Shown: piece by piece, positions 3,898 through 29,346 of the stretch
Layout of the letters: every line of letters starts with the position of its first letter
Position numbering within the stretch: position 1 is the stretch's first letter
Source: a virus
IMG/VR virus record: IMGVR_UViG_3300035698_028457
Coordinates: 1-35,982 of that record
Strand: one strand, 5' to 3'
Length of the DNA stretch: 35,982 nucleotides
Notes under the pieces: generated by a model
Seen by the model: the letters and a program-made list of their open reading frames with translations, nothing else
Told to the model about the DNA's origin: nothing
The model's database searches: none
Translations under genes and position numbers: made by a program

Positions 3898-3910
3898 TGT
3901 GTGTGTTACG

Positions 3911-4372
3911 ATGATAGATCAACAGGCCTTGGACAAGTTCGAAGAGGACTTGAGGCAGGAAGCGATAGAGCTATTGCAGAATACAGCAGAGAGAACTTTT
4001 TATTTATCACAATTAAACCTTGTTGAAAACAAGTGGGAAATCGACTCATCAAAAGGATTCATCACAACCACCATCACGGATACTGGACAGCTCCTCAAAA
4101 CTGGCACATTACAAAAAACAGATGATGGGGCAATAGTCCAATACTCTATTGATTATGCCTCAGATATAGAATTTGGGACTCCACCTGGCACTCAGGCAGA
4201 CTTCGCATCAATTCGCAAATGGGTGATAAGAAAACTCGGAGTACCAAAAGTCAATGCAACCCAAGCGGCAGCAAATATTATCAAGCACATATTCGAGCAG
4301 GGAACCGATGCTCGCCCATTTTTGAGGCAAGCTGTAAATCAAGCAGTAGAGGAGATGAATAAGAAAACGTGA
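3911..4372 (+). CDS. HK97 gp10-like head closure/neck protein
   Basis: 153 residues from ATG 3911. An upstream GTG at 3899 in the same frame would add four residues (MCVT), but neither start has a clear ribosome-binding site. The helical N-terminus (EEDLRQEAIELLQNTAERTF) is followed by a beta-rich core with YASDIEFGTPPG and a C-terminal ARPFLRQAVNQAVEEM. The pairing of an (Y/E)FGT motif with a terminal RPFL helix is the signature of the HK97 gp10 family, which works at the head-tail joint. It sits between the connector and the tail terminator, the standard order. Confidence 0.8.
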   Translation: MIDQQALDKFEEDLRQEAIELLQNTAERTFYLSQLNLVENKWEIDSSKGFITTTITDTGQLLKTGTLQKTDDGAIVQYSIDYASDIEFGTPPGTQADFASIRKWVIRKLGVPKVNATQAAANIIKHIFEQGTDARPFLRQAVNQAVEEMNKKT

Positions 4373-11831: not shown

Positions 11832-12123
11832 AAGAGAACCTTTTGAGAGATAACTCCTCAAGACAATGGCTCAGGGTTGTTGAGAGGGGAAACATATATT
11901 GAACGCCAAATGCCGGAGCATACTATTTCTGAGGGCTGAAGACCAATGATGATTACCCAAAAACAACTTACAACTCCAACTTACAACTTACAAAAAGGAC
12001 GTACTGGGTTAGTTTGCTCCGATCCCGAGCCAGCACTCACGAGCCCACCTTATCGCGCCCCTGAAATATGGAAACAGACACGGACTTGGTGTTGAACAAT
12101 ACTCCAATATCTTCTATCTTTTT
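11832..12123 (+). ncRNA. Possible structured non-coding RNA
   Basis: The boundaries are inferred: a TATA box centred at 11807 on the left and a TCTATCTTTTT U-rich run on the right. Inside are several self-complementary elements. TTGAG near 11843 and TTGTTGAG near 11878 can each pair with the same CTCAA (11856-11860), giving alternative hairpins. ATGC-CGGA-GCAT lies at 11910-11921. GCTC 12016-12019 can pair with a GAGC at 12027-12030 or one a little further on. No known RNA family (tRNA, RNase P, SRP, C/D box) is matched. It may instead be a regulatory leader or part of the origin. Confidence 0.3.
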
Positions 12124-12143
12124 AAGACTATCTACAACAGTTT

Positions 12144-12158
12144 ACAATTAAATGAATA
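12144..12158 (+). repeat. Iteron copy 1 (forward)
   Basis: ACAATTAAATGAATA, identical to copy 3 at 12344-12358. It is part of the longer left arm 12139-12163. Confidence 0.85.
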
Positions 12159-12258
12159 GATGCACCCACTTCCAAGTAGCCCAATCATTATTTTACAAGG
12201 AGAAAACCACAAAAACAAAGTTAAGCTAAACTTAAACTTCTATACTCTATTTATTTAA

Positions 12259-12273
12259 TCATTTAATTGTAAA
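12259..12273 (-). repeat. Iteron copy 2 (reverse)
   Basis: TCATTTAATTGTAAA, the exact reverse complement of 12141-12155 in the left arm. Confidence 0.85.
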
Positions 12274-12275
12274 AG

Positions 12276-12335
12276 TATGTAGTAGTAGTATAGTAGTATA
12301 TTAGTAGTATATTAGTAGTTAGTAGTAGTAATATG
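12276..12335. repeat. TAG-triplet repeat tract
   Basis: A run of TAG/TAT units (TAGTAGTAGTATAGTAGTATA, continuing in the same style) fills the interval between iteron copies 2 and 3. It is AT-rich with strong strand asymmetry (G but almost no C on the + strand), suitable for easy melting. It does not encode a plausible protein. Confidence 0.8.
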
Positions 12336-12343
12336 AGTATTTA

Positions 12344-12358
12344 ACAATTAAATGAATA
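12344..12358 (+). repeat. Iteron copy 3 (forward)
   Basis: Identical to copy 1. With copy 2 it forms an inverted pair flanking the TAG-triplet tract. Confidence 0.85.
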
Positions 12359-12442
12359 CACTCGACATCTTAACTTTTAGCTAAACTTCTATTGGGCACT
12401 TCTACCCTCAGAAAACGAGAAAAAAAGCACAGGAACAACACC

Positions 12443-12475
12443 GCATCTATTCATTTATTCATTTAATTATAAACT
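12443..12475 (-). repeat. Iteron copy 4 (reverse, with internal duplication)
   Basis: The reverse complement of the left arm 12139-12163, with one substitution near ATTAT and an 8-bp tandem duplication (TTCATTTA twice). Confidence 0.8.
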
Positions 12476-12487
12476 TCTAAGATAGTT

Positions 12488-12496
12488 TTTTAAATA
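12488..12496 (+). promoter_or_regulatory. TATA-box promoter for the early gene cluster
   Basis: TTTTAAATA lies at 12488-12496 with an expected start near 12518. The hairpin GCCT-CTCG-AGGC (12517-12528) falls at the start of the transcript. The box sits between the right-arm AGATAGT and TGTTCAACA elements, so a protein bound to the repeat block could control it. Confidence 0.6.
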
Positions 12497-12540
12497 CTGG
12501 TGCTGTTCAACAATAAGCCTCTCGAGGCGGAGATGGGAAA

Positions 12541-12735
12541 ATGGGTTTATGGGATAAAGGAAATCGTCTGTTTATTTTACTTAAAAATGGCACTAATCTA
12601 AATGTCACAGTTCTCTCAAAAGAAGACAAACTGCTTTTAATCATCGATAAATTTGGGGTTCAGAGAGCAATAAACGTGGACGAGATAGCGGAAGTAAGGG
12701 ACAAAGGAGACGGGAAAAATGGGAAAAGGGATTAG
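12541..12735 (+). CDS. Small protein with Sm/Hfq-like pattern
   Basis: 64 residues; GGAG lies seven bases before the ATG. The core reads FILLKNGTNLNVTVLS, then KLLLIIDKFGVQRAINVDEI. This alternation, with an NGT turn after strand one and a final hydrophobic Val-Asp-x-Ile-Ala-x-Val strand, resembles the five-stranded Sm/Hfq barrel (compare the LxNGxxLxGxV and IxxxAI pattern of Hfq). Sm-like proteins bind U-rich or A-rich RNA. It is the first gene after the origin candidate and overlaps the next by 17 bases. The fold is inferred by eye; other small beta-barrels (SH3-like) are possible. Confidence 0.5.
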   Translation: MGLWDKGNRLFILLKNGTNLNVTVLSKEDKLLLIIDKFGVQRAINVDEIAEVRDKGDGKNGKRD

Positions 12736-13093
12736 TGCCAAGCACGATAAAGACCGGATGTTTTACACTCTCAATATCCCCTACTTAGATTACTTCATTT
12801 TAAGGACCATGCTGGATGGAGTAGATGGTGAACAATACGGAGAATATACAATAACCATCCTAAGACTCCACTATGAAAAAAAACACAAAACACAACCCTC
12901 TAGCTCTCTATGGTCGCAAACAATGAGCAGACTAAGACAAAGAGGATATATCTACACAGATAGGCGCGAGTGTATTTACCTACGATTTAGTAGCTCGCAC
13001 ATCAAATCCCAACTGAAAAATACTCTAAACGAGATAAAGCAGTTGGACAAATTAATCAAAGAAAGAATACTAACAAGACAAACGGAGGGGTAA
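12719..13093 (+). CDS. Winged-helix DNA-binding protein (early regulator or initiator candidate)
   Basis: 124 residues; GGAGACGG precedes the ATG. Helices at about residues 20-55 are followed by SSLWSQTMSRLRQRGYIYTD and RRECIYLRFSS: a recognition helix and a beta wing, as in winged-helix domains. A C-terminal helix (SQLKNTLNEIKQLDKLIKER) could dimerise. Encoded within 600 bp of the repeat block, it is a reasonable candidate for the protein that binds those repeats, either as repressor or as replication initiator. That link is inferred. Confidence 0.6.
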   Translation: MGKGISAKHDKDRMFYTLNIPYLDYFILRTMLDGVDGEQYGEYTITILRLHYEKKHKTQPSSSLWSQTMSRLRQRGYIYTDRRECIYLRFSSSHIKSQLKNTLNEIKQLDKLIKERILTRQTEG

Positions 13094-13879: not shown

Positions 13880-14356
13880 ATGAAATATAGAAAAACAAAA
13901 GGAAAAACCTACGAAGAAATCTACGGGGTAGAAGTAGCAACCAAATTAAGAGAGATGAGGAGAAAGCATCAATTAGGAAACAAATATGGTCTCGGGACAA
14001 AACGTAGCGTGTCAGTCAAAAAAATACTGAGTGAGCAGAAAAAAGGAGCAAAAAATCCTAACTGGAATGGTGGTTGGGCATGGAAAGGAGATAAGGTCGG
14101 CTACGATGCAATCCACACGTATATCCAAAGGAGAAAAGAAAAACCAAATAGATGCGAATTCTGTCAGAAGAAAACCGAAAAATTAGACCTATCTTTTAAG
14201 CATCATGAGGGAGGTCATGAAAAAACAAAATATACTAGAAATCTAGAGGATTATCAATGGCTCTGTAGAAAATGCCATTATACATACGATGGAGCTTGGA
14301 AAATAAACAAACGGTGGTCTAATGAACAAAGTAGAACTTCAGAAAAAAAGAAATGA
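13880..14356 (+). CDS. Free-standing HNH endonuclease with NUMOD3-like N-terminus
   Basis: 158 residues. The N-terminal half has a NUMOD3-like DNA-binding repeat (EQKKGAKNPNWNGGWAWKG). The C-terminal half is an HNH fold with CEFCQKK (about residues 94-100), DLSFKHHEGGH (the catalytic His region) and LCRKCHYTYDG, the second CxxCH knuckle. HNH enzymes of this type make site-specific cuts and spread as free-standing homing endonucleases. It has its own TATA box and is leaderless, unlike the operon around it. Its last 35 bp contain the start of the next gene. These features suggest a mobile insertion. Confidence 0.8.
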   Translation: MKYRKTKGKTYEEIYGVEVATKLREMRRKHQLGNKYGLGTKRSVSVKKILSEQKKGAKNPNWNGGWAWKGDKVGYDAIHTYIQRRKEKPNRCEFCQKKTEKLDLSFKHHEGGHEKTKYTRNLEDYQWLCRKCHYTYDGAWKINKRWSNEQSRTSEKKK

Positions 14357-15259: not shown

Positions 15260-15754
15260 ATGGTAAAAGTACAAATGTCAGGAATTTTAAAAGAAATCAA
15301 AGACACAAAAAACCCAATAATAAAAATGTTGGTTTTTGAAAACAAAGGAAAAGTCGAAACAGCAAACGCATTCCTAAAGGGAATGGTGCTCCCCAAACTG
15401 CCCCTAGACAGAAACTACAGATACTCAATCACAGTCAATGGGAACTTCAACAATCTCGGGAAAACATACAACAAAGACAAAGTAGCAACCGGTTGGGACA
15501 TAGAAGAATTAGGAGAAGATGTCTGCCAGCCCGCGCCAATGGGAACCACTGGAAAAGTCCCCTCCCCTTCCACACCAACCCCACCTACAAACAACTGGCA
15601 AGAACAGAAGGAGCTAAAAATAATCCGCCAATCCTGCATGAGGTCTGCAGCCATGATTGTAGCAACTCAAAAAACAACCGATATCAATGAGGCAACAAAC
15701 GCAACTCTCGATATGACAAAAGCGTTCGAGAAATATTGCAACACGGGTGAATAA
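15260..15754 (+). CDS. Possible OB-fold ssDNA-binding protein
   Basis: 164 residues. Residues 1-85 are beta-rich and could form an OB barrel (MVKVQMSGILKEIKD, then RYSITVNGNFNNLGKTYNKD). A proline/threonine linker (PSPSTPTPPTNN) joins this to a helical C-terminal part (IIRQSCMRSAAMIVATQ; DMTKAFEKYC). A DNA-binding beta domain, a flexible linker and a small helical tail is a layout seen in viral single-strand-binding proteins. It is in the early region where replication functions are expected. The assignment is tentative. Confidence 0.4.
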   Translation: MVKVQMSGILKEIKDTKNPIIKMLVFENKGKVETANAFLKGMVLPKLPLDRNYRYSITVNGNFNNLGKTYNKDKVATGWDIEELGEDVCQPAPMGTTGKVPSPSTPTPPTNNWQEQKELKIIRQSCMRSAAMIVATQKTTDINEATNATLDMTKAFEKYCNTGE

Positions 15755-16098: not shown

Positions 16099-16197
16099 GT
16101 GGGGCGCTGTAAAATTTGCGAAAATACTTGTAAAGGAACTCTCTGCGAAAGACACAAAGAGATGTATCCAAAATTAAATCTGAGGTGGAATCGATGA
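16099..16197 (+). CDS. Zinc-finger microprotein, 32 aa
   Basis: 32 residues from GTG 16099. It has GRCKICENTCKGTLCERHKE: C-x2-C-x3-C-x4-C-x2-H, enough for one zinc site. The frame begins one base after the previous stop and ends overlapping the next ATG (ATGA). Coupling on both sides supports translation. Confidence 0.45.
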   Translation: MGRCKICENTCKGTLCERHKEMYPKLNLRWNR

Positions 16198-18290: not shown

Positions 18291-18830
18291 ATGACTAAAG
18301 AATGGAAGAAATCTAAAAAAATAGAGATAACTGTCAAAGGTACAAATCTTCTCGAACTCAAACAATTTGAAAACTTTCAAGGAAATCTAAAAGAAATCTC
18401 AGAAGAGGCTTTGGAAAAACTCAAAAACAATATCATCAAGAACGGATTTTGCGCACCCATATTTGTTTGGTCCGGAAAGAAATTTATTTTAGATGGACAC
18501 CAAAGAATCATTGCAGTAAAAAGTCTAATCGAAGATGGATACGTTTTAGAGAATAACGAGCTCCCATACATTGAGATCGAAGCCAAAGACAAAAAACAAG
18601 CAGCCGAATTAGTTTTGTCTTACAATTCCCAATACGGAGAAATCACCGAAGATGGATTAAAAGAATTCAAAGACAAATTCGAATTAGACCTCAGCGAATT
18701 AGATAATACAATAAATATCCCGATAGGCTTGGATGTGGATGTGAATCTCACAGAAGAACCAAACGAGAAAGATCTCTCTGAAGAATTGCCCACAAAAAAC
18801 AAATGCCCAAAATGTGAGTACGAATGGTAA
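18291..18830 (+). CDS. ParB N-terminal-domain-like protein
   Basis: 179 residues. The N-terminal 110 residues have the ParB/Srx order: ELKQFENFQGN, then KNNIIKNGFCAPIFVWSGKK, then the signature FILDGHQRIIAVKSL (a GHxR box, here GHQR), then ELPYIEIEAKD and AELVLSYNSQYG. The C-terminus carries a CPKCEYEW knuckle. This layout is common in virus genes next to DNA methyltransferases, where the domain may act as a nuclease or CTP-dependent clamp rather than in partition. It overlaps the methyltransferase start by seven bases, so the two are made together. Confidence 0.75.
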   Translation: MTKEWKKSKKIEITVKGTNLLELKQFENFQGNLKEISEEALEKLKNNIIKNGFCAPIFVWSGKKFILDGHQRIIAVKSLIEDGYVLENNELPYIEIEAKDKKQAAELVLSYNSQYGEITEDGLKEFKDKFELDLSELDNTINIPIGLDVDVNLTEEPNEKDLSEELPTKNKCPKCEYEW

Positions 18831-19816
18831 AACCAACAGTTATCAGTTTATTCTCTGGATGTGGCAGATCTTCTTTAGGATACAAACTCGCAGGGTACAG
18901 AGAATTACTCGCAATCGATTTCGATGCAAATGCAGTTGAAACATTCAAACTCAATTTTCCAGAAGTCGAATGCTGGAAAGCAGATATTACACAAATCACT
19001 GGCAAACAAATAATGGATGCAACAAAACTCGAACCAGGGCAACTAGATATTTTAGATGGGAGTCCGCCCTGTCAGGGATTCTCAACAGCTGGAAAAAGAA
19101 AAGTAACGGATTCGAGAAATCGATTATTCGAATCATACGTGAGACTAATTCAAGAACTCAAGCCAAAAATCTTTGTCATGGAAAACGTCTCCGGAATGGC
19201 AAAGGGAAAAATGAAAGGACTGTTTAATGAAATCCTCAAGACATTCAAAAGTCTAAATTATGAAGTACGCGCAAGGCAACTAAATGCAAAATACTATGGA
19301 GTACCACAATCAAGACAGAGGATCTTCTTCATAGGCGTAAGGAAAGACCTAAATACGCCACCTCTATTCCCAACACCATCTCCAAAACTAATAACAGTAA
19401 AACAAGCATTAGAAAAACTCCCACAACAAAACACAGAACTAAAACACCCCTCAGGGAAATTAATATCATTGACAACAAAACTCAAGCAAGGAGAAGAAGC
19501 AAGCAAATATCACATAAAAGGAAACTATTTCAATGTCAAAAAACTCCATAATAATAAACCTTCTATGACTGTGACAAAACTATTTAGCGATGGCGCGGCC
19601 GGACTAATCCACCCTCTCAAAAATAGATTTTTAACAATTCCTGAATGCAAACGGATCTGTAGTTTTCCAGATGATTTCAAATTAATAGGGTCCTTTAAAG
19701 ATAAGTGGGCAAGGTTGGGGAATGCCGTGATGCCTCTCCAGATGAAGGCTATTGCGCAAACTCTCAAAAAAGGAATTTTAGATGATTATTATGCCAAAAC
19801 CCAGTCAAAAGGATAA
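18824..19816 (+). CDS. DNA (cytosine-5-)-methyltransferase
   Basis: 330 residues, full length. Motifs are in order: I, SLFSGCGRSSLGY (residues 8-20), for S-adenosylmethionine; IV, GSPPCQGFS with nucleophile Cys83; VI, MENVSGM with Glu120; VIII, QSRQRIFFIG; IX and X, IPECKRICSFPDDF and WARLGNAVMP. It transfers a methyl group to C5 of cytosine in a target that cannot be read from sequence. No matching restriction enzyme is visible, so it is likely a solitary viral enzyme protecting against host restriction or marking the genome. It overlaps ParB upstream and the small terminase downstream. Confidence 0.92.
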   Translation: MVKPTVISLFSGCGRSSLGYKLAGYRELLAIDFDANAVETFKLNFPEVECWKADITQITGKQIMDATKLEPGQLDILDGSPPCQGFSTAGKRKVTDSRNRLFESYVRLIQELKPKIFVMENVSGMAKGKMKGLFNEILKTFKSLNYEVRARQLNAKYYGVPQSRQRIFFIGVRKDLNTPPLFPTPSPKLITVKQALEKLPQQNTELKHPSGKLISLTTKLKQGEEASKYHIKGNYFNVKKLHNNKPSMTVTKLFSDGAAGLIHPLKNRFLTIPECKRICSFPDDFKLIGSFKDKWARLGNAVMPLQMKAIAQTLKKGILDDYYAKTQSKG

Positions 19817-20401: not shown

Positions 20402-20590
20402 ATGAAGAAAGTAGTAAAATCATTCGGGAAAGGTGGGATGCATATTTACCTAACGAAAAAAGATGGATTCAAAGTAGGGGACGAAATAGATCTCCCACAA
20501 AATACTCACAAAGTTGATTCGGATAAACAAATTCGAGAAATAGTGAGGGAAGAAATTGATAATTATATGTCGGAGAAGAGAGGATATTGA
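20402..20590 (+). CDS. DUF2080-like small protein
   Basis: 62 residues from ATG 20402. The N-terminus KKVVKSFGKGGMHIYLTKK followed by GFKVGDEIDLP matches the DUF2080 family, small archaeal proteins (AbrB-like beta fold) often coded with transposons or other mobile elements. A C-terminal helix (IREIVREEIDNYMSEKRG) follows. It has its own promoter and precedes an HNH endonuclease, so the pair may have arrived together. It probably binds DNA; the partner is unknown. Confidence 0.65.
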   Translation: MKKVVKSFGKGGMHIYLTKKDGFKVGDEIDLPQNTHKVDSDKQIREIVREEIDNYMSEKRGY

Positions 20591-20591
20591 A

Positions 20592-20996
20592 ATGGAAGTT
20601 GGAAACAAAGTCTGCATGAATGGGGAAGAATTCATTTGCATCAAAAAATTCCATGATTCTAAATCCTGTGAAGATGTATGCCTATTAGAAAAAATCAACA
20701 AACCAAAAATAAAACGCTTAAAATTTCCTAAAAAATCAAAATACACTTACAACTGGAGAACAATCAGAAACTCAATAATTGCGAGAGACAAATTCTGCCA
20801 GAAATGCAAATCTTGCAAATATTTAGATGTGCATCACAAAGACAAAAATAGAGAAAACAATAATGAAGATAATCTCATTACTCTGTGTGCCTTCTGTCAT
20901 TCAGAAGAACCAGGACATGAGTCATATAAAAGAGTATTGAATAAACGTCTATCATGGACCACTTCTCACAAATCGTGGAGTGGTTTACTGATATAA
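20592..20996 (+). CDS. HNH endonuclease
   Basis: 134 residues from ATG 20592. The C-terminal half is a compact HNH domain: YNWRTIRNSIIARDKFCQKC, then LDVHHKDKNRENNNEDNL (catalytic His pair and Asn) and ITLCAFCHSEEPGHE, with CxxC knuckles for structural zinc. The N-terminal 50 residues contain a small beta unit (VGNKVCMNGEEFICIKKF). HNH proteins next to terminases in some phages assist packaging, but here an insertion with the DUF2080 gene is equally likely. Confidence 0.85.
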   Translation: MEVGNKVCMNGEEFICIKKFHDSKSCEDVCLLEKINKPKIKRLKFPKKSKYTYNWRTIRNSIIARDKFCQKCKSCKYLDVHHKDKNRENNNEDNLITLCAFCHSEEPGHESYKRVLNKRLSWTTSHKSWSGLLI

Positions 20997-21932: not shown

Positions 21933-23383
21933 TAGAATTCAAGCCTACAGAAAAACAGAGGATTGCTTGGAGCTACCTACAGGACAAGGAAACAATCGAG
22001 CTCTTATTCGGTGGCGGAGCAGGAGGAGGCAAAACAACTCTTGGTTGCGTTTGGATCGCATCAATGGCAATGCAGTATCCAGGCACAAGATATCTGATTG
22101 GGAGATCAGTTCTCAAGGCACTCAAAACCTCAACCCTCCTAACTCTCTTTGAAATCTTTGAGGACTGGGGACTAAAGCGCGATGATCACTATACGTATAA
22201 TGCATATTCGGATGTCATCACATTTCAAAACAAATCAGAAATCCATTTGAGAGATCTAAAATTAAATCCATCCGATCCAGAGTTCGATGCATTGGGCTCA
22301 ACAGAATACACAGCAATTTTTGTCGATGAGAGCTCGCAGATTATTAAGAAATGTTATGAAGTCCTCACATCAAGAATGAGATACAAGCACACAGAATACA
22401 AACTAATTCCAAAAATTCTCTTATGCACAAATCCCAACAAGGGCTTCGCGTATCATGATTTTTACAGACCATGGACGAAAAAGAAACTCCCAGAGTACAA
22501 GAAGTTCGTGCAAGCCCTCGCAAAAGACAACCCACATCTTCACCCCGACTACATCAAAACATTAGGGCGATTGTCCGGAGCAACAAGAGAACGTCTCAAA
22601 GAAGGCAACTGGGAATTCAGCGATGATCCCTCAGTACTCATGGACTACGAGATGATAACCAACATCTTCACAAACACAGCCCAAGACCAAGAACACAAAT
22701 ACATCACTTGCGATCCCGCCCGATTCGGAAAAGACACGGCAGCCTTTTTCTTATGGAAGGGACTACAAATCATAAAAGTTCTAAGACTCCCAAAAACAGG
22801 ACACGATGAAATAGAGAACCAACTCCAAAGTTGGGCACAATCTGAGGGGGTGCCACGTTCTCGAATAATATCTGATGAGCCGGGGGCGGGCGGAATAATC
22901 GACCACCTAAAAGGGATCAAGGGATTCATCGGTGGATCATCTCCTCTCTTAATCGGAGAAGAAAAAGTCTCAGTATATTCAAATCTCCGAGCGCAATGCT
23001 TTTTCAAACTAGCTGAGAAAGTAAACAACGCAGAAATAGGGTGCTATGAGAAAATAGATCCCGAAATAAAGCAAATGATAATTGAGGAGCTCGAGCAAGT
23101 AAAACAAAAAAACATCTACGAGACAGACCAAAAACTCGCAATCATAAAGAAAGAAGAAATGAAGGAAAATCTCCCAAGACAACGATCTCCGGACTTAGCA
23201 GATGCAATCAGCATGAGAATGTATTTTGAGCTAGAGCCTCCAATCCAGATCACAATCCTCGGATGGGGTGGGGGTCAACAACAAATTCAAAAAGAAGAAG
23301 ATATAGAAAAGAAGAAGAAGAATCCACATTTAACCGATCCGACTTCACAAGACGATGAGCTCACAACTCGTTTATTTGAATAG
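21917..23383 (+). CDS. terL: Terminase large subunit (ATPase and nuclease)
   Basis: 488 residues. The ATPase half has the Walker A motif GGGAGGGKTT (residues 32-41), Walker B AIFVDESS (about 134-141) and a coupling motif LLCTNPNKG. The nuclease half has the three acidic motifs of the RNase H-like fold: ITCDPARFGKD (about 265), ISDEPGAGG (about 320) and DLADAISMR (about 427). The protein translocates genomic DNA into the prohead and cuts it. It is followed by portal-MuF as expected. A circularly closed assembly fits headful packaging but does not prove it. Confidence 0.95.
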   Translation: MEETIIEFKPTEKQRIAWSYLQDKETIELLFGGGAGGGKTTLGCVWIASMAMQYPGTRYLIGRSVLKALKTSTLLTLFEIFEDWGLKRDDHYTYNAYSDVITFQNKSEIHLRDLKLNPSDPEFDALGSTEYTAIFVDESSQIIKKCYEVLTSRMRYKHTEYKLIPKILLCTNPNKGFAYHDFYRPWTKKKLPEYKKFVQALAKDNPHLHPDYIKTLGRLSGATRERLKEGNWEFSDDPSVLMDYEMITNIFTNTAQDQEHKYITCDPARFGKDTAAFFLWKGLQIIKVLRLPKTGHDEIENQLQSWAQSEGVPRSRIISDEPGAGGIIDHLKGIKGFIGGSSPLLIGEEKVSVYSNLRAQCFFKLAEKVNNAEIGCYEKIDPEIKQMIIEELEQVKQKNIYETDQKLAIIKKEEMKENLPRQRSPDLADAISMRMYFELEPPIQITILGWGGGQQQIQKEEDIEKKKKNPHLTDPTSQDDELTTRLFE

Positions 23384-23417: not shown

Positions 23418-25499
23418 ATGGGTATGCTTGATAAAGCAGTAAGGGCAGTATGGAAACAGCTGCCAATAAATATCACGGACCAACTTCTCCGAGAATCAAC
23501 AAGCAAAGTAGAGAGTACAGTCCCGACAACACTTTTTTTAACTGGGAGCGAACTTGGACTCACAAAAGCACAAGCAACTCATAATCGATATGGGATCACT
23601 CTCTCAGCTCTTCAACGATGGATCATGAGAAAGAATCACAGTTTAGTATCTGCAGTTCATAATGCAATCGTCAAGCAAGCAAAAAAAGTAGAGCTTGTCG
23701 TTTGCCCAATCGATGAAACTCTCCCCTTTAACGAGGAAACAAAAAAGAGAATGGAAGAATTCATGGAGACGGGATTCGGACATCTTGGAGAGAAAATGTT
23801 TAGAGGGCATATGCTCGACACGAAGAAATGGTACGGAGATGCATTCGCAGAGATAGTTTTTGATTCAGAAACCAAAGAGCCTATTTTTGTAAATTACCTT
23901 ACATCTGAAACAATCAACATCAAGCCAGATGAGCACGGATTTATTGAATCATTCCCTCAAGTAATCAGGGGCGCATTAGTTCATGACTTCCCGCCTGAAA
24001 ATATTATGCGCCTTGTTGAACACGAGGACGAATACTCTTTGTTTGGATTCTCTGATTTAGACTCTCTTTGGACTGTTCTATTTATGGATGTGGTCGCAAC
24101 AGACCTCCAAACAAAAAAACTTCTAAATGACGCAGGCTCTGCAGGAGTCTTTGTATTTCCAAAAGGAGCAACACCTGACGAGCTCTACGCCCTAAGAAGA
24201 CTCTATTTATTACAGCACAAGCAAAACCCTGGACTCCCTATCTTCATGGATAGACTTGAAAATTTCATTAAAACTGGAATCGATATGAAAGATATGGATT
24301 GGAAAGAATTGCACCAATACGTCAAGGAAAGAGTAATGTCCGTTTATTCAGTTCTCCCAATGCAAGTCGCTGTCGTGGAGACAGGCAAGCTCGCGAATCC
24401 AGAACAGCAGTTGGAAATAGGAGAAGAATACATCCGGCAAGAATTAGAAATCATGCAGGGTGCATACAACCGAGACCTCACAAAATACTTTGAGGACAGC
24501 GAAAACCTCATGTTTAAATTCACAGAACTAGAGCCGAAGGTCGAAGCTCTGCAAAAGGCTGCCGATTTAGAAAACAAAAAGATGCAGACCGCGCAGATGA
24601 TGGCGAATATTCCAAAGACCTACACTAAGAATGAAATAAGAGAAATGACTGATTTCGATCCACTAGAAGATGGAGGGAATGAATTCCCCGAGCAACCAGC
24701 TCCCGATCTCTTTGAGGGATTGTCTGGAAACATTGAAGGCCAGAAAGCAGAAGAAGATAAAAAAAAAGTTGGAATATTCAACTGCAAAATGTATCTCCAA
24801 CAGAAACTCGACAGAAGAAAAGCAGCACTAAAATTTCTAATGGACCTGAGATCCGAATACAAAAACTTCTCAAAAGAAACAGCAAGCCTGATAAAAAAGG
24901 AAAAGTCAAGCAAGTTCTCAAAAAAGGGCGCAGCAGAACTACAGGCAAATCTAACAAAGCTACTTAAAACTCTTGGAATAAACCTGACAGCGATTACAAA
25001 TGAAAACGTCAAAGCAATCTTCGAGAGCTCCAAAGAGCAAGTGGGAGCCAAACCTCAACCCAAAGACGAAGCAGAAATCGAGAAAACCCTGACTGCAAAG
25101 AATGGTGGCATCGATGGAATCAAAGACTTCACTCAAGCCCAAAGAGAAGGGATCAAGGAAGTAATCGACAGAAGCCTAAAAGAAAGCATGACACTCGACC
25201 AAACTGTAAAAGAGATGCGCAAATTCTCTAACGCCGAAACCTACAGGCTCGAGCGCATCGCCCGGACCGAAACAACAAGATTCGCCAATCAAGGTCGCTT
25301 CGCAGGATACAAAGACCAAGAAGAGGAAGCTGGAAAGAAATTCAAATTTGATTGGGTTGGTCCTAATGATAACCGCACAACAGACATCTGCAAGCAAATA
25401 GTGAAAAGAAATCCCTATACTTTGAGAGGGATCACTAAAGCAACTAACGACGGACTGCCACATATTAACTGCAGACATGTAGCTGTGAGGCGGGTATGA
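23418..25499 (+). CDS. Portal protein fused to a MuF head-morphogenesis domain
   Basis: 693 residues; GGGGGATAGATCAC precedes the ATG. Residues about 1-420 are portal-like: HNAIVKQAKKVELVVCP, KKWYGDAFAEIVFD, the wing/stem region and LFMDVVATDLQTKKLLND. Residues about 440-590 are a charged helical linker. Residues about 590-693 are a MuF domain: LERIARTETTRFANQGRFAG, KFDWVGPNDNRTTDICK and GLPHINCRHVAVRRV with the final Cys-Arg-His. The dodecameric portal is the DNA entry channel; MuF proteins are minor capsid or ejected proteins. The fusion places one MuF domain per portal subunit. Confidence 0.9.
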   Translation: MGMLDKAVRAVWKQLPINITDQLLRESTSKVESTVPTTLFLTGSELGLTKAQATHNRYGITLSALQRWIMRKNHSLVSAVHNAIVKQAKKVELVVCPIDETLPFNEETKKRMEEFMETGFGHLGEKMFRGHMLDTKKWYGDAFAEIVFDSETKEPIFVNYLTSETINIKPDEHGFIESFPQVIRGALVHDFPPENIMRLVEHEDEYSLFGFSDLDSLWTVLFMDVVATDLQTKKLLNDAGSAGVFVFPKGATPDELYALRRLYLLQHKQNPGLPIFMDRLENFIKTGIDMKDMDWKELHQYVKERVMSVYSVLPMQVAVVETGKLANPEQQLEIGEEYIRQELEIMQGAYNRDLTKYFEDSENLMFKFTELEPKVEALQKAADLENKKMQTAQMMANIPKTYTKNEIREMTDFDPLEDGGNEFPEQPAPDLFEGLSGNIEGQKAEEDKKKVGIFNCKMYLQQKLDRRKAALKFLMDLRSEYKNFSKETASLIKKEKSSKFSKKGAAELQANLTKLLKTLGINLTAITNENVKAIFESSKEQVGAKPQPKDEAEIEKTLTAKNGGIDGIKDFTQAQREGIKEVIDRSLKESMTLDQTVKEMRKFSNAETYRLERIARTETTRFANQGRFAGYKDQEEEAGKKFKFDWVGPNDNRTTDICKQIVKRNPYTLRGITKATNDGLPHINCRHVAVRRV

Positions 25500-27640: not shown

Positions 27641-27705
27641 AGATTAGTGCGCTAAGAACGGGAGATTGGCGCCTCCTAATGCTATAGATGGAGGAGTTGG
27701 GAATT

Positions 27706-29346
27706 ATGGCATCTACACCGAGTGTACAAAAAGACTTTCGAGTCGGCCCCGTACTGAGAAGTTACGATGGGTATATTTATGAAAATATTCATATCAAAGG
27801 AGATTTCTCTTGTGATGGCAATTTCTATTTTGGAGACGCAACAACTGACAGTCTCAACGTCACAGGGAAACAAATAAACACATTCACCGCGATGACTGAG
27901 AATGACAAAGTTCTGGAAATAGATTCAACTGTCACAGACGCTACTCATGGCGCGAGACAGGGAGCTCTATATATCGGGATGAGTCGTTCAACCGTGATGA
28001 CTGCTTCAGATGGAAATCCAGATACTGGGTTTAAGATGAAGCTTGAAAATGCAACAGCATCGGATGCATATTGCAGAATGCGCGGACTTGACATCAGCGT
28101 AGAAACTGACGCATCCGGAGATGGCTCATATTCTCTTGAAGGGGCATCCTTTACAGTAAAAGATGTGTCCGGAACTACAATCAATGCAGCTGGATATATG
28201 TATGCAGTCAAAGCTCTAACCAACAAAAACGGTTCAGGCGACGCAGACATCATCGGATACTACATGCAAGACGATTCTCAGTCCGCAACAGGAACACACT
28301 ACGGAATGAAGATCGGCGCTGCAAATTACGCAATCGCAAGAGACTACGGAATTCACATTGGAGCAACAAATGGAAGTTGGGGAGTGGGTTTGTATATCGA
28401 TGACAACGTAACAACTGGAATCGATCTACACGACAACTGCACAACTGGAATTGACATCGGAGACGCAACAACTGGTATTAATGTAACTGGAACTTGCACA
28501 ACTGCTATTAATGTAAGCGGAGTTCAGACAGATGAAACTGGACTTGACTTGGCTGCAGTATTCCAACACGGATCCTACAGCACATCTTTGGCTTATGGAA
28601 CACAAACCGCACATTTAGTTCTGAAATCAACTTGTATAACCGCAGGAGCAACTGCAGTTTATGTCTTTGGAGACGTTAATCGAATAACTACAAGTGCAAC
28701 TTCAACTGGCTACATGAATCCGAGTTATGCCTATCTATCAGTTGGTCATAATTTGGTAAATGGCTGGGCTACAAGAGGTAGAGTTGATATTACTGACACT
28801 TGTGAAGTTGGCGAGATGGCAGGGCTCCTGGGAACTCTAGATGTTGCTGCAAGTAAAGTTATCACAGTAACTGGTGGAGCCGTTTTGGCATCAGCAATAC
28901 TGGATATGAATATTAATGCAGGCGCATCTGTAGCACAAGAAGTAACTTGTCTAGAGGTAAGACCACATATTAGTTCAAACATTGCCGGTTCAAGTTCTGG
29001 TATTAGAATTAATGTGAATTGTAGTTCAACGAATTATTTGGATTACGGTCTAGATGTAAGGAGTATGAGTAGCCAACAGACAGCGGCAATCAGAATCCTT
29101 GCAACCCCAGCGTCCGATGCATTGGCTTGTGGTATTCTTATTGAGGGACAAGATTCTTCAACCTCAGTTGTAACCAATGCTATATCTTTTGCAGGTGCAA
29201 TCACAAATGTTCTTGACTTCGCAGAAGATGATGGCAGTCAAGGAATAACAACTGCAACAGGTGCAGTCGGTTCTACAACCCACAAGATTCCAATAGATGT
29301 GGCGGGAACAACTAGATATTTGGTCGTATATGACAACGTATCCTAA
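27706..29346 (+). CDS. Fibre-like capsid decoration protein
   Basis: 546 residues from ATG 27706, with GGAGGAGTTGGG upstream. It is beta-rich without membrane segments. A repeated turn pattern occurs at residues about 225-275: TTGIDLHDNCTTGIDIGDAT, then TTGINVTGTCTTAINVSGV, ten-residue units that suggest a beta-solenoid. The C-terminus DGSQGITTATGAVG, then THKIPIDVAGTTRYLVVY, is a form common at the ends of virus fibre or decoration proteins. As the first gene after the capsid gene it probably binds the head. It has no signal peptide, unlike the fibre genes further on. Confidence 0.6.
   Translation: MASTPSVQKDFRVGPVLRSYDGYIYENIHIKGDFSCDGNFYFGDATTDSLNVTGKQINTFTAMTENDKVLEIDSTVTDATHGARQGALYIGMSRSTVMTASDGNPDTGFKMKLENATASDAYCRMRGLDISVETDASGDGSYSLEGASFTVKDVSGTTINAAGYMYAVKALTNKNGSGDADIIGYYMQDDSQSATGTHYGMKIGAANYAIARDYGIHIGATNGSWGVGLYIDDNVTTGIDLHDNCTTGIDIGDATTGINVTGTCTTAINVSGVQTDETGLDLAAVFQHGSYSTSLAYGTQTAHLVLKSTCITAGATAVYVFGDVNRITTSATSTGYMNPSYAYLSVGHNLVNGWATRGRVDITDTCEVGEMAGLLGTLDVAASKVITVTGGAVLASAILDMNINAGASVAQEVTCLEVRPHISSNIAGSSSGIRINVNCSSTNYLDYGLDVRSMSSQQTAAIRILATPASDALACGILIEGQDSSTSVVTNAISFAGAITNVLDFAEDDGSQGITTATGAVGSTTHKIPIDVAGTTRYLVVYDNVS

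Follow-up and report, generated by a model that had tools for sequence, protein, structure and literature searches.

We asked what the function of the largest non-coding region in the genome of an uncultured virus (positions 12090-12512 of the record IMGVR_UViG_3300035698_028457) might be. Very little is known about how DNA replication starts in viruses of uncultured, reduced archaea, and an earlier note on this DNA had taken the region for a candidate origin or a centromere-like site. The window, that is, the whole stretch of DNA that was analysed, comprises the complete record of 35,982 bases. It carries a 127-bp direct terminal repeat at its ends, which implies a circle of 35,855 bp. In support of true circularity, a 731-aa ORF containing a Gly_rich_2 domain runs from 35159 across the join to 1499 and so reads through the terminal repeat.

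All listed genes of the virus lie on the plus strand. We regard it as a tailed virus because of its large terminase subunit (Terminase_6N/Terminase_3), its portal protein fused to a Mu-F-like domain and its SU10-type capsid protein; for the latter a close search gave no relative. The terminase is 43% identical to those of Cellulophaga phage phi10:1 and Flavobacterium phage 11b and 44-50% identical to those of a set of IMG/VR contigs. In the genome collection it is matched best by a Nanoarchaeota contig (47%), and the terminase, the portal and the 3899-4372 protein all have relatives on a genome fragment from the same phylum (L202/L221). Related terminases are also present in Bacteroidota. Archaeal TATA boxes on the coding strand exceed expectation in three viral relatives (6 vs 0.7 expected in G006, 5 vs 0.8 in G007, 4 vs 0.4 in G009) and are not enriched in a Pedobacter and a Flagellimonas locus; the gaps of the present genome hold a single exact one. 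Judging from such sequence comparisons, the host is likely archaeal and probably belongs to DPANN.

The region lies at the start of the early genes, the first of which begins at 12541. The claim that it is the only large non-coding region holds: it is the largest gap, with no plus-strand ORF of at least 45 codons in 12096-12540, and the next gap measures 223 bp. Its elements are the following.

12090-12098, no strand: outer palindrome TGTTGAACA, left copy, mirroring TGTTCAACA at 12504-12512 (dyad 12301)
12127-12133, minus strand: ACTATCT, mirror of AGATAGT at 12480-12486 (dyad 12306.5, from the mirror alignment)
12139-12162, plus strand: iteron F1 with its flanks (core ACAATTAAATGAATA at 12144-12158), 92% complementary to 12452-12475
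12218-12233, no strand: near-perfect palindrome AAGTTAAGCTAAACTT, whose right half AGCTAAACTT recurs at 12379-12388; absent from the earlier note
12233-12242, 12382-12391 and 12470-12479, plus strand: three exact copies of TAAACTTCTA
12256-12270, minus strand: iteron R1, with a weaker copy 8 bp leftward (12248-12262)
12280-12331, plus strand: TAG/TAT tract with a sub-periodicity of about 11 bp, at the dyad centre and in the core of the least stable 100 bp (12241-12340)
12344-12358, plus strand: iteron F2, an exact copy of F1, 200 bp away from it
12379-12388, plus strand: AGCTAAACTT, right counterpart of the palindrome at 12218-12233
12456-12470, minus strand: iteron R2, 200 bp from R1, with a weaker copy 8 bp leftward (12448-12462)
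12480-12486, plus strand: AGATAGT, mirror of ACTATCT at 12127-12133
12504-12512, no strand: outer palindrome TGTTCAACA, right copy, between a TATA box and the likely transcription start

The anatomy described in the earlier note was confirmed almost exactly. The four 15-bp elements do stand in the order forward, reverse, forward, reverse, and match ACAATTAAATGAATA with 0, 1, 0 and 1 mismatches. They form two inverted pairs, F1-R1 and F2-R2, a unit that is repeated 200 bp apart, the distances F1-F2 and R1-R2 being exactly equal. The pairs F1/R2 and R1/F2 share a common dyad at 12307.0, which is the middle of the TAG tract, and the outer palindromes, the ACTATCT/AGATAGT pair and the AGCTAAACTT element follow this symmetry to within a few bases. 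ACTATCT and the outer element are mirrored as had been said; note that the outer element, TGTTSAACA, is itself a palindrome, so that any two copies of it will necessarily appear mirrored. A third copy of it lies outside the region, at 24014. The block said to be mirrored over 25 bp is indeed mirrored (12139-12162 and 12452-12475), but it is shorter and imperfect (24 bp, 92%). The count of three for TAAACTTCTA was correct as well: all copies are confined to the region and have the same orientation, where 0.06 would be expected.

To quantify the symmetry, the left half of the region was aligned with the reverse complement of the right half. The score was 158.5, compared with 99.9 +/- 6.6 (maximum 125) in 500 dinucleotide shuffles. 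Since the region had been picked for its repeats, a scan of the whole contig is the fairer comparison; here the region again scores highest, at 142, with the next value at 109.5 and a mean of 64.8 +/- 12.5. Near the second-highest score (centre 28620) we see two 47-nt direct repeats, 57 nt apart, at 28406-28509 within the ORF 27688-29346.

Could the region be a functionless, AT-rich microsatellite that looks ordered by chance? Many unrelated viral contigs do contain broken TAG tracts: a search with the TAG-tract pattern gave 36 stretches that have no common anatomy, many of them inside open frames. However, the symmetry survives removal of the TAG tract (139 vs 79.4 +/- 6.4 in shuffles, maximum 99), and neither the exact 200-bp spacing of two element pairs nor the three exact copies of TAAACTTCTA is expected by chance. 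We find this explanation hardly credible.

A long inverted repeat might also act as a single strand, extruded as a cruciform or folded on a displaced strand. It could then be a start for the lagging strand, a site of recombination or a segment that inverts. One strand of the region folds as a long hairpin (z = -4.2). On the other hand, the arms are only about 80-92% complementary and the loops are unequal in length, and profile scans with Pfam and PHROGs recognised no recombinase, invertase or rolling-circle Rep. Such a function appears improbable to us. Structured RNA was rejected as well: an Rfam search gave no match even at E up to 1, and 11840-12089 folds no better than shuffles.

Next to the symmetry, it is the stability of the duplex that sets the region apart. 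By nearest-neighbour calculation the global minimum of the circle falls into the region at 100, 200 and 400 bp (12241-12340, 12184-12383 and 12098-12497, respectively), and the least stable 100 bp have 101.1 kcal/mol per 100 bp compared with a circle mean of 130.6 +/- 6.3. At a scale of 50 bp two other sites are equally weak, so that it is the block as a whole that is unstable. The centre is a strand-asymmetric TAG/TAT tract, as had been noted, with 12 TAG in 55 bases; on the other strand the count is nowhere in the genome above 4. When the repeats are read as 3'-GAT-5' triplets, their phase changes about every 11 bp.

The right edge of the region looks like a promoter, and three features matter here.

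12488-12496, plus strand: archaeal-type TATA box TTTTAAATA, a putative early promoter with a presumed start near 12515-12520
12541-12735, plus strand: first small early ORF, 64 aa, with no family match
12719-13093, plus strand: 124-aa protein that may bind the repeats, predicted to have elements in a winged-helix-like order and a long C-terminal helix (low-confidence model, pLDDT 46)

The whole region could thus be an operator array that controls transcription and has no role in starting replication, for example through cooperative looping by which the 124-aa putative winged-helix protein would autoregulate the early operon. Directly before the early genes stand the TATA box and, placed as a repressor site would be, the palindrome; the winged-helix-like protein is encoded second in that operon. 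A mirror-symmetric gap in the relative G003 (L211:16493-16604) moreover turns out to consist of two back-to-back archaeal-type promoters (GAAACATTTATAT). These observations explain the promoter edge, but not the rest. The dyad lies about 200 bp upstream of the promoter; the left arm contains a mirrored, imperfect version of the TATA/TGTTCAACA edge from which no gene is read leftwards; and it is at the TAG core, not at the promoter, that the duplex is weakest. A simple operator array would not require the distant dyad or the gene-less arm, and we regard purely transcriptional control, the main rival explanation, as possible but less likely than not.

The explanation that we lean towards, if only by a little over even, is that the circular genome of this tailed virus has its replication origin here and that the origin is fused with the early-operon promoter. 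This accounts for the symmetry and the instability together. It would also supply the cis-acting start that such a genome needs: Pfam and PHROGs revealed no polymerase, helicase or primase among the ORFs scanned, so that the circle should carry, at some place, an origin to which the host replisome is recruited. The anatomy of the region, its symmetry, its duplex instability and its position are shown, as is the lack of a recognisable replication enzyme or ParA; from these we infer protein binding, melting, bidirectionality and which protein is the initiator. An initiator, probably a small DNA-binding protein of the virus itself, would occupy both inverted iteron pairs, along with the palindromes that lie between and outside them, working from either side of the centre. 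The resulting strain would open the AT-rich TAG core, onto both strands of which the replication enzymes of the host could then load, giving bidirectional replication. At the right edge, the TATA box and the TGTTCAACA palindrome might allow the same or another protein to couple early transcription to the use of the origin.

We were not able to identify an initiator gene in the virus, which counts against an origin, as does the absence of host-type ORBs and DnaA boxes from the region. The 124-aa protein matches phrog_31522 weakly and had no homologue in protein searches, one of which gave weak hits that look like noise; the AlphaFold models of this protein and of the one encoded at 16185 reached pLDDT values of 46 and 40, respectively. 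Another early protein of 164 aa (15260-15754) resembles a single-strand-binding protein (SSB) by eye; it had no significant match among solved structures or PHROGs. Two HNH-endonuclease-like genes (13880-14356 and 20556-20996) lie on either side of the early region.

Nucleotide skew, which the earlier note had suggested as a check, does not point to an origin here. Over all positions, cumulative GC skew is not significant (p = 0.91). Restricted to four-fold sites (p = 0.08), it has a weak maximum near 12769 and not a minimum, a sign opposite to that of a standard origin. Calling the origin by AT skew was rejected: the total has its minimum at 12661, but the signal is gone at four-fold degenerate sites (p = 0.51), and the minimum thus reflects protein composition.

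The centromere-like function that had been proposed alongside the origin did not stand up. In such a partition site the iterated elements of the non-coding region would be bound by the ParB-like protein encoded at 18291-18830, which indeed has weak ParB matches. However, no ORF of about 180 aa or more matches a ParA-like partner or one of the ParM/TubZ type. The ParB-like gene is 6 kb away from the site and directly precedes a C5-methyltransferase gene; its best PHROG is annotated as DNA methyltransferase, and its matches are to phage ParB-like/methyltransferase families. We consider a partition site very unlikely. As for the locus itself, the ParB-like protein and the C5-cytosine methyltransferase (18291-19816) are a ParB/methyltransferase pair of the kind usual in phages, and not a partition gene.

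Do related viruses share the repeats? As a set, they were not found in the IMG/VR or INPHARED records searched, so that the conservation proposed as a check failed to appear; since no close relative was among the viruses compared, this absence says little. A DNA pattern of the iteron pair gave one match, apparently by chance, and with a single-iteron pattern every locus among the matches listed has one copy only. Five relatives were compared (G003, G006, G007, G009 and G033), and neither G003 nor G007 shares the iterons. The largest gap of G006 appears to be mainly an early-promoter region and lacks such repeats, which counts against an origin. G007 has a very AT-rich imperfect palindrome (L215:8558-8672; 4 of 500 shuffles were as good) after a small ribbon-helix-helix-like gene, in the least stable 200 bp of its contig, and this is possibly an analogous site. 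In summary, what stands of the earlier origin proposal is the anatomy, that is, pairs of inverted candidate binding sites with the circle's least stable duplex between them, while a relative with the same repeats is missing. If the region is an origin, it provides a compact and testable cis element in a genome without a recognisable replication enzyme, and a handle for finding the initiator.

Finally, we compared the region with known types of origins. Inverted initiator sites flanking an AT-rich element are a described layout of archaeal origins (PMC4010727, PMC12141716). Like the Orc1/Cdc6 origins with ORB-DUE-ORB order (e.g. Sulfolobus oriC1), the region is non-coding and has inverted initiator-type sites around an AT-rich, easily melted core; it differs in having no ORB sequence, and the virus has no recognised orc1/cdc6 gene. 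No adjacent cdc6 or whiP initiator gene was seen, as neither family occurs in the ORFs scanned. The host-type ORB pattern TTCCANNGGAAAT, derived from orc1-adjacent sites in genomes of the Nanoarchaeota phylum, does not occur in the region even when one mismatch is allowed, and elsewhere it has chance matches only. Several orc1/cdc6 loci of that phylum (L225-L254) have ORB-like TTTCCATAGGAAATnAGGGG elements close to the gene.

With the iteron origins of plasmids and lambda-like phages (Rep/iterons and DUE) the region shares its early location and its repeated sites of about 15 bp next to an AT-rich repeat tract. Several copies of a short site next to an AT-rich DUE are characteristic of iteron origins, and the copies here would be the initiator sites. 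However, they flank the core on either side as inverted pairs instead of standing in tandem on one side, and no Rep or O-like initiator was recognised in the virus. The 124-aa putative winged-helix protein encoded next to the region, with its low-confidence model and no homologue, may be such an initiator.

The TAG repeats also recall the bacterial DnaA-trio, or BUS element, in that 3'-GAT-5' triplets correspond to its consensus (PMC10797057) and the tract can be read as 3'-(G/A)AT-5' triplets. It differs in that the triplet phase is broken, no DnaA box is nearby and the likely archaeal host would have no DnaA. DnaA boxes (TTATNCACA) are absent from the region and occur in the window only at 22421 and 35222. 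It is a long shot, but the TAG core may be a counterpart of the DnaA-trio that is carried by a virus and is possibly archaeal. Its triplets would then give a strand-specific register for a new type of initiator, which would assemble during duplex opening and be loaded from both sides by the mirrored iteron pairs.

A similar layout is known from herpesvirus origins of the oriS type, which are imperfect palindromes with an AT-rich centre and inverted initiator boxes. Only the layout is alike; the virus, the sites and the proteins are unrelated. If the region is an origin, the double nesting of its mirror layout would make it an unusual variant of a design that combines inverted sites with a melting core.
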